Assembly: GCF_029210385.1 (NCBI RefSeq)
Contig: NZ_JARGDQ010000004.1
Span: 186,001-250,000 of the forward strand
Direction of reading: 5' to 3'
Source: Desulfurivibrio dismutans
GTDB lineage: Bacteria > Desulfobacterota > Desulfobulbia > Desulfobulbales > Desulfurivibrionaceae
DNA length: 64,000 bases
This document shows positions 19,087 through 19,414 of the stretch, in pieces. How positions within the stretch are numbered: position 1 is the stretch's first letter; each line of letters starts with the position of its first letter. The notes beneath the pieces were generated by a model. The model was not told the DNA's origin. It worked only from the letters and a program-made list of their open reading frames with translations, and did not search any database. The position numbers were made by a program, and so were the translations under genes.

Positions 19087-19139
19087 GCAGTGTGAGCAGG
19101 AACGGTTGAAGTCGTTGGATCTGGCACCGGGGTGGGGGC

Positions 19140-19258
19140 CGTGAAACCCGGTAGCGGCTCATTCTCGGCCGGCATCCTGCCGGCCTCCGAGGTGCCGGCG
19201 GCCTCCTGCACGTCCATGTGCCCGACCGCCGGCAAACCCGCCGCTACCGGGCTTCACG
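19140..19258. repeat. 119-bp inverted-repeat element that can fold as a three-way junction
   Basis: Arms 19141-19158 and 19240-19257 are complementary over 18 bases with one G-T wobble; bases 19140 and 19258 extend the stem. Between them lie two perfect hairpins: GGCCGGCA/TGCCGGCC at 19167-19185 and TGCCGGCGG/CCGCCGGCA at 19193-19234, the latter with a small GCAC/GTGC hairpin in its loop. It lies in the 400-base gap between the nrdJ 3' end and the cupin operon start. No open frame explains it. Confidence 0.75.
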
Positions 19259-19302
19259 TCCCCCGTCCGCGTGCACGACGGCTTTCTCCCCCTGCCGGAG
19301 GC

Positions 19303-19414
19303 GTGAAAACGCAGGTCAGTGCCGCAGGTTGCGGCAAGCGGCCCGGCGCCGCGTACATCAGGTACGCAAGCTGGGACGATCGCCGCAAGATGCGGTACTG
19401 ACGTGCGTTTTCAC
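19303..19414. repeat. Long palindromic element M2, overlapping the nrdJ stop codon
   Basis: GTGAAAACGC...GTCAGTGCCGC pairs with the far arm GCGGTACTGAC...GCGTTTTCAC, and the inner TTGCGG/CCGCAA pair and the GCGTAC/GTACGC tip close the hairpin. It shares CAGGTTGCGG, AAGC, ATCAGGT and GATCGCCGCAAGATG with M1. Compared with M1 the stem sequence differs, but pairing is kept (CCCC/GGGG there, CCGC/GCGG here). The TGA stop of nrdJ (19411-19413) lies in the outer arm. Confidence 0.8.

Follow-up and report, generated by a model that had tools for sequence, protein, structure and literature searches.

A mobile MITE-like repeat with a three-way-junction RNA fold downstream of nrdJ in Desulfurivibrio dismutans, and its possible link to CsrA

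Introduction

Four kinds of small repeat or small RNA come close to the element treated here. Prokaryotic MITEs and Rickettsia palindromic elements are compared as described in the review PMC10969869. Like MITEs, the element is short, multi-copy and intergenic, with inverted ends, a stable fold and direct repeats at some copies; unlike them, it has a structured core that occurs on two sets of ends and in many groups, with arms that covary. With the Rickettsia palindromic elements it shares a length of about 150 bp, a palindromic build and the presence of some copies in frame in unrelated genes, while most copies in its own genome lie outside genes and its hosts are more varied.

The other two comparisons concern regulatory RNAs and extragenic repeats. 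According to PMC7652899, a CsrA site is a GGA in a hairpin loop; RsmE structures have it as ANGGAN, the repeats of CsrB as CAGGA(U/A/C)G, and very stable stems are said to be able to weaken CsrA binding. For the TwoAYGGAY RNA, CsrA binding was predicted from two such loops (PMC4333381). CsrB, RsmY, RsmZ and the candidate TwoAYGGAY RNA, as these two sources describe them, resemble the element in that their hairpins come in pairs and have loops of the ANGGAN or CAGGA(U/A/C)G form. They differ from it in being dedicated genes, whereas the element is dispersed and mobile and forms a three-way junction with a long outer stem that matches no Rfam model. REP sequences and GTAG-tagged repeats with RAYTs are likewise palindromic and extragenic; REPs, however, measure 20-40 bp (PMC3733652), and no tie of the element to a RAYT was found.

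Setting and fold of the window copy

The copy from which the analysis started lies in a stretch of 64,000 nucleotides of the Desulfurivibrio dismutans genome, here called the window. It stands between nrdJ, a 755-aa ribonucleotide reductase ORF (Pfam PF02867, PF00317, PF12637), and a 184-aa ORF that an earlier note, made from the letters of this DNA, had named a cupin and that is without a Pfam match at 0.001; an amidoligase ORF (PF12224) comes after it. All three ORFs are on the minus strand, and the RNA strand of the element, also the minus strand, has the same direction. The gap between nrdJ and the cupin ORF had been put at 400 bp and measures 394 bp (nrdJ ORF end 19411, cupin ORF start 19016). 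A second, unrelated-looking palindromic repeat, M2, occupies window positions 19303-19414. It gives at least 49 rows in the own genome, a lower bound from the 40 candidates scored out of 197, and dozens of rows in G001-G003, and M2-like sequence adjoins some other copies of the element as well.

Folding of both strands confirms the three-way junction that had been predicted for the 119-nt stretch 19140-19258. The plus strand folds at -77.5 kcal/mol (shuffles -46.4, sd 3.7) and the minus strand at -87.3 kcal/mol (shuffles -52.9, sd 4.1); z is -8.4 in both cases, and on either strand none of 200 shuffles folds as well. Other details of the prediction had to be amended. The outer stem of 18 bp consists on the plus strand of 6 + 12 pairs flanking an A-C mismatch; on the minus strand it is unbroken, with 19 pairs, because that mismatch is a G-U there. 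The two internal hairpins, thought to be perfect, have a UCC bulge in one and an inner loop in the other on the plus strand. Nor is the stretch free of open frames: an ORF of 89 aa that begins with GTG (19132-19401, plus strand) crosses it, and other copies of the element are read in frame inside genes. The minus-strand fold is more regular than the plus-strand fold, with its 19 outer pairs, a six-base P2 loop and the P3 tip CAGGAUG. The outer arms extend as a 35-nt inverted repeat, 19124-19158 / 19240-19274, that is 83% complementary. The parts of this copy are collected in Table 1.

Table 1. Features of the window copy, in window coordinates
Feature	Position	Strand	Basis or remark
Mobile element, likely full extent ~197 bp	19097..19294	- (RNA 5'-3')	At both extremes the bases are like the inverted ends CAGGGCAACGTCAAAGTC of copies in G002
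Structured RNA core	19127..19270	-	Covariance model R1, 146.3 bits, a score that is not independent since this copy is one of the 22 used to build R1
Outer stem P1, 5' arm	19240..19258	-	19 pairs with 19140-19158
Outer stem P1, 3' arm	19140..19158	-	Fold and covariation
Hairpin P2	19193..19234	-	Fold
P2 apical hexaloop AUGGAC	19212..19217	-	Matches the ANGGAN form of RsmE sites (PMC7652899)
Hairpin P3	19163..19192	-	Fold
P3 apical CAGGAUG	19173..19179	-	Matches the CsrB form CAGGA(U/A/C)G (PMC7652899)
Decayed terminal inverted repeat CAGGAACGGTTGAAGTC	19097..19113	+	Likeness to kept ends elsewhere
Decayed opposite terminal inverted repeat, CAGGGGGAGAAAGCCGTC on the minus strand	19277..19294	-	Likeness to kept ends elsewhere

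Copy number and host range

A blast search with the 119-nt stretch returns 38 rows from the own genome (G000, 2.84 Mb in 33 contigs). R1, a covariance model built from 22 own-genome copies, returns 37 rows there, seven of them opposite-strand shadows, so that 30 distinct places remain; as in MITEs, the copies are numerous and scattered and carry no gene. Type A copies are mostly 80-89% like the window copy and have arms in common with it, while in type B copies the outer stem is quite different in sequence, yet complementary. Across 257 genomes of the order, searched with R1 under stricter filters, the element is found in 13, the own genome included, and among good assemblies of the order 7 of 148 carry it. 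Its distribution in the order is patchy, and the hosts that have it often have it in multiple copies.

Scanning genome contigs with the core motif yielded at least 115 stretches, and the phyla among the listed titles are Nitrospirota, Desulfobacterota, Latescibacterota, Gemmatimonadota, Omnitrophota, Parcubacteria and others. R1, a model from a single genome, recovers 66 of 95 motif loci at E up to 0.05 (77 rows from 100 loci, five of these loci coming from outside the motif scan and two of the rows being shadows); the 29 that it missed are absent from alignment A2, on which the comparison between groups is based. A wider model, R2, gives 2 to 136 rows per genome, possible shadows included, in 16 genomes picked for holding a motif match. 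Seven pattern loci that resemble chance coding matches were dropped by eye (L164, L200, L223, L224, L233, L258, L263), whereas L229 and L230 are doubtful, yet retained in the counts; L235 and L161, a Latescibacterota record, belong to one genome. The one motif match on a viral contig also looks like a chance coding match. No Rfam family, ribozymes included, matches the window at the gathering score, or the element and 11 + 7 further loci at relaxed E-values, and searches of the open-licence PMC literature turned up no account of the family.

Mobility

Six sites of the own genome were compared with G002, where two are filled (L096, L102) and four are without the element (L097, L099, L101 and the window site). 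The L101 site is empty in G002 because one continuous match spans the joined flanks, and L097 and L099 look empty there by the size of the gap, 92 and 63 bp. The L102 site, which lies between a stop codon and the next gene, is empty in G001 and G003. At the window site of G003, 41 bp separate the two matched flanks and the model finds no element; in G002 the gap between nrdJ and the cupin ORF holds a 307-aa ORF in place of the element, and the model finds none there either. This ORF (L306 609-1532, minus strand) reads like a glycosyltransferase by eye. On a contig of G001 the neighbouring palindrome M2 is visible and the element is absent. Absence from close relatives, which together with absence of a transcript had been named as an outcome that would count against the earlier proposal, is what is seen at this one place; for the family it does not hold, since the family is widespread.

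In G051 the element is 195 bp long and bounded by GTAACTATCCAG. Both ends are present in six of nine copies fetched from this genome, and four of these six have 7-8 of 8 bases duplicated. The ends in the genus of the window are CAGGGCAACGTCAAAGTC, and a 9-bp duplication is kept in 2 of 34 type A copies, both at the identical offset; the remaining copies among these 34 have no clear target duplication. Terminal inverted repeats are present in G051 and in the better-kept copies of G002, and decayed at the window copy, whose ends were assigned by eye and where no target duplication is left, and at many others. One core is thus carried by two different sets of ends, GTAACTATCCAG in G051 and CAGGGCAACGTCAAAGTC in the genus of the window. 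Target duplications of 8 or 9 bp together with inverted ends indicate that the copies which have them moved as DNA. Dispersed copies, empty sites in relatives, inverted ends and some target duplications all support the mobile element that the earlier note had considered.

The ends seem to resemble those of the IS66 and ISAs1 families. No transposase or autonomous partner tied to the element was found. There is no recurrent neighbour gene either: when 825 ORFs from the pattern loci were clustered, kinases (15 loci) and ABC proteins (13) aside, each cluster spanned at most five loci, and the ORFs between close copies of the element look like housekeeping genes by eye. Ends of the GTAACTATCCAG type are also seen on further small repeats, with 87 pattern sites in G051 and 33 in G013, and some of the repeats with these ends are without the core (L264, L270 and other loci of G013 and G051). 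A separate observation concerns two Y1_Tnp stretches, L318 of G002 and L316 of G000, which are flanked by inverted repeats GGGGTCAAGTCTTGACATGACAG; four copies of these repeats lie within one 4-kb stretch of G002.

Covariation and the acting strand

The alignment of 22 own-genome copies has compensatory changes on both sides in 31 of 49 predicted pairs. In A2, which was fitted to the model and whose rows are related, 44 of 49 pairs have changed on both sides, 89.8% of the cells pair, and covariation scores 0.734, compared with 0.164 (sd 0.006) after shuffling and 0.09-0.11 with slid partners. Conservation of the core in A2 is not independent, because the loci were chosen by the core motif; the letters of that motif cover neither the outer stem nor the inner hairpins. 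The bases of the junction are fixed (GCGG, RUUY, CCUCGGAG, CGAGAAUGAGC), and the sequence of the arms varies freely but stays paired. Some Nitrospirota-type copies (L152, L153, L204, L244, L245) have in P2 an extra CCCCCC/GGGGGG-rich palindrome, which looks like the insertion of another repeat at the tip.

Covariation across groups, in 44 of 49 pairs, supports the structured RNA that had been suggested for this place; the polarity of G-U pairs does so in the diverse set and not in the own lineage. Read on the strand that is minus in the window, the outer stems of 44 diverse copies, which are those left from 121 pattern matches after a filter on the arms, hold 72 G-U against 25 A-C, with p 2e-6 if independent, a value that is too good because copies within a clade share history. 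The 42 own and related copies have 27 G-U and 35 A-C, which is no G-U excess. The minus strand folds better in 36 of the 44 diverse copies and in 33 of the 42 own and related ones. That the acting molecule is an RNA of the minus strand of the window is supported by these data, with the polarity in the own lineage speaking against it.

Position relative to genes

Neighbouring genes, which rest on rough gene calls, run along the RNA at 11 of 25 own copies and against it at four; five copies lie between convergent genes, one between divergent genes and four have no called neighbour, and seven of the 25 are flagged inside some long ORF. Among 88 diverse copies, 37 have neighbours running against the RNA, 19 along it, 18 are convergent, eight divergent and six have one neighbour; 12 of these 88 copies were marked as lying within an ORF. 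Diverse copies in tandem genes thus have an antisense excess (37 versus 19, p 0.02), which is unexpected of an RNA that acts inside mRNA and argues against a simple sense role there.

At least four of the 26 own copies examined, from the 30 places, lie in frame and in sense inside genes, all four in one frame. The host genes encode peptidase M1, transglutaminase, BcrAD/DUF2229 and AMP-binding domains. The P3 insert, however, measures 13-25 nt, with frames mixed across lineages. A conserved peptide, SEAGRMPAENE, was rejected as a general basis of the motif because these lengths break the frame in other lineages, and for the same reason the element, unlike the Rickettsia palindromic elements, is without a conserved peptide. 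Downstream of the window copy, 5 bp beyond the element, is a weak terminator-like site of 6 pairs at 19092-19074 on the minus strand. One such site against 0.7 in shuffles is no more than chance would give, and a search for promoter-like sites near the element of the window was negative.

GGA loops and CsrA

As in CsrA-binding RNAs, two GGA loops, AUGGAC and CAGGAUG, are present in the window copy. In the aligned own copies GGA occurs in P2 in 22 of 22 and in P3 in at least 20 of 22, and the GG of P3 is invariant while the stems vary. The own genome, G000, has one CsrA match (E 6e-23). Among 19 hosts with CsrA that were reached via motif loci, own lineage excluded and with G286, the same genome as G051, among the 19, GGA is the commonest apical triplet of P2 in 15 and of P3 in 17; where CsrA was not found, it is the commonest in 4 of 34 hosts for P2 and in 6 of 36 for P3.

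Two sets of hosts were compared by loop class. In a prospective set, in which the loop classes were fixed before the look-up of CsrA and from which G286 was dropped, CsrA is found in 8 of 12 GGA hosts versus 2 of 26 other hosts (p 3.5e-4); for this look-up 9 of 59 loci, two of them GGA, had been left out as presumed duplicates (L228, L237, L239, L245, L247, L249, L254, L259, L262). An earlier set has CsrA in 13 of 18 GGA hosts and in none of five others (p 0.0075), with G001 and G003 included (GGA loops, CsrA not found, 77-79% complete) and with G269, which has mixed loops, counted as GGA, this genome being omitted from the tree contrasts. The non-GGA class of G280 comes from two copies, and a third locus with the same record prefix, L204, reads GGA. 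CsrA was looked for and not found in the GGA hosts G001, G003, G259, G262, G268, G284, G285, G300 and G309; such missing CsrA may be an artefact, because many genomes are incomplete. Conversely, G287 and G302 have CsrA and non-GGA loops. G302 (L221) has five CsrA matches, one with an internal stop, and its copy of the element is without GGA loops.

A quick rpoB tree with 54 rows shows that the contrast between GGA and CsrA comes mostly from one split within Nitrospirota: in a clade of eight, all have GGA and seven have CsrA, and in a group of 21, 20 are without GGA and none has CsrA. Of the four independent contrasts on well-supported rpoB branches, an average of 1.1 agree with the link, 0.2 go against it and 2.7 show no difference, which is not significant. 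Shared ancestry explains the link between GGA and CsrA equally, because there are just four independent contrasts and no significance. The CsrA reading of the GGA loops is a good lead and not a result, and is not separable from shared ancestry.

Weighing the explanations

On balance, it seems probable that the element is a non-autonomous, MITE-like mobile element whose three-way-junction RNA clamps CsrA. That it moves and that its core is structured is observed; from the loops we infer the role of CsrA. A transposase of another element would act on it in trans. In hosts with CsrA each of the two hairpins would offer a GGA loop, so that one CsrA dimer could clamp both, and an inserted copy would bring its host mRNA under the control of CsrA or enlarge a pool that titrates CsrA. 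At the window site the RNA strand is codirectional with nrdJ, and read-through from nrdJ would therefore make it part of the transcript, as a 3' UTR and as the leader of the operon. A plain MITE, that is, selfish DNA moved in trans with a fold that has no RNA role, is a serious competitor, though a rather unlikely one. Its junction would be kept as folded single-stranded DNA for transposase or replication, and template switching would keep the arms complementary. Such DNA would account for the empty sites in relatives, the inverted ends and the target duplications at some copies, and it agrees with the own lineage being without G-U excess and with the predominance of antisense copies near genes among the diverse copies. 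It does not fit the G-U excess of the diverse set (72:25), the better folding of the minus strand (36/44 and 33/42 copies) or the unpaired junction and loop bases that are fixed while the stems drift, and a core that is read by one transposase leaves two end sets with the same core unexplained. A structured RNA that acts at its junction, for example as a ribozyme or as a dock for another protein, with lineage-specific loops and an incidental CsrA, is less likely still. Every group seen retains the junction, and so does the large clade of Nitrospirota that has few GGA loops and in which CsrA was not found; its constancy is partly a matter of choice, because the motif scan selected for the junction, and no Rfam family matches, ribozymes included.

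Two further explanations have little probability. The earlier note had also considered an attenuator, and an attenuator or leader that serves the cupin-amidoligase operon and is retained here for regulation would suit an element that lies between nrdJ and the operon, codirectional with both, and that has a weak terminator-like site downstream on the minus strand. We hold it to be very improbable: the element is absent from the gap between nrdJ and the cupin ORF in G003 and G002, the same element occurs at 29 other places, the terminator-like site is no better than chance and a promoter-like site was not found. Slighter again are the chances of a repeat of the REP/REPIN type moved by a RAYT, a Y1 tyrosine transposase. 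The element is palindromic, extragenic and situated between tandem or convergent genes, as is described for REPs in PMC3733652, and Y1_Tnp genes are present in the own genome. They are, however, present in 24 of 26 genomes, whether or not the element is there; five fetched Y1_Tnp stretches contain no copy of it, and a repeat scan of four of these stretches shows that they carry their own long inverted repeats. Target duplications would not be expected of Y1 enzymes. In these genomes and stretches no association between the element and Y1 tyrosine transposases was found, and a RAYT was rejected as the mover.

Implications

In one sense the element is ordinary, a MITE-like repeat beside another repeat. 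What is unusual is that one RNA-like core is kept across distant groups and on different transposon ends. Small mobile sequences of bacteria have mostly been studied per genus and by sequence; a family that is held together by structure is lost between groups in a sequence search, and this one is without an Rfam match in the copies tried, although the genomes that carry it can hold many copies.

The clamp that we favour for the window copy can be extended, tentatively and with less than even confidence, to mobile RNA clamps in many phyla. A junction module would ride on different transposon ends, with paired CsrA sites where the host has CsrA and loss of these sites where it has not, and it would add genes to the Csr network or act as a dispersed CsrA sponge. 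If the loops do bind CsrA, they would give jumping DNA a direct route to rewire a global RNA-binding regulator.
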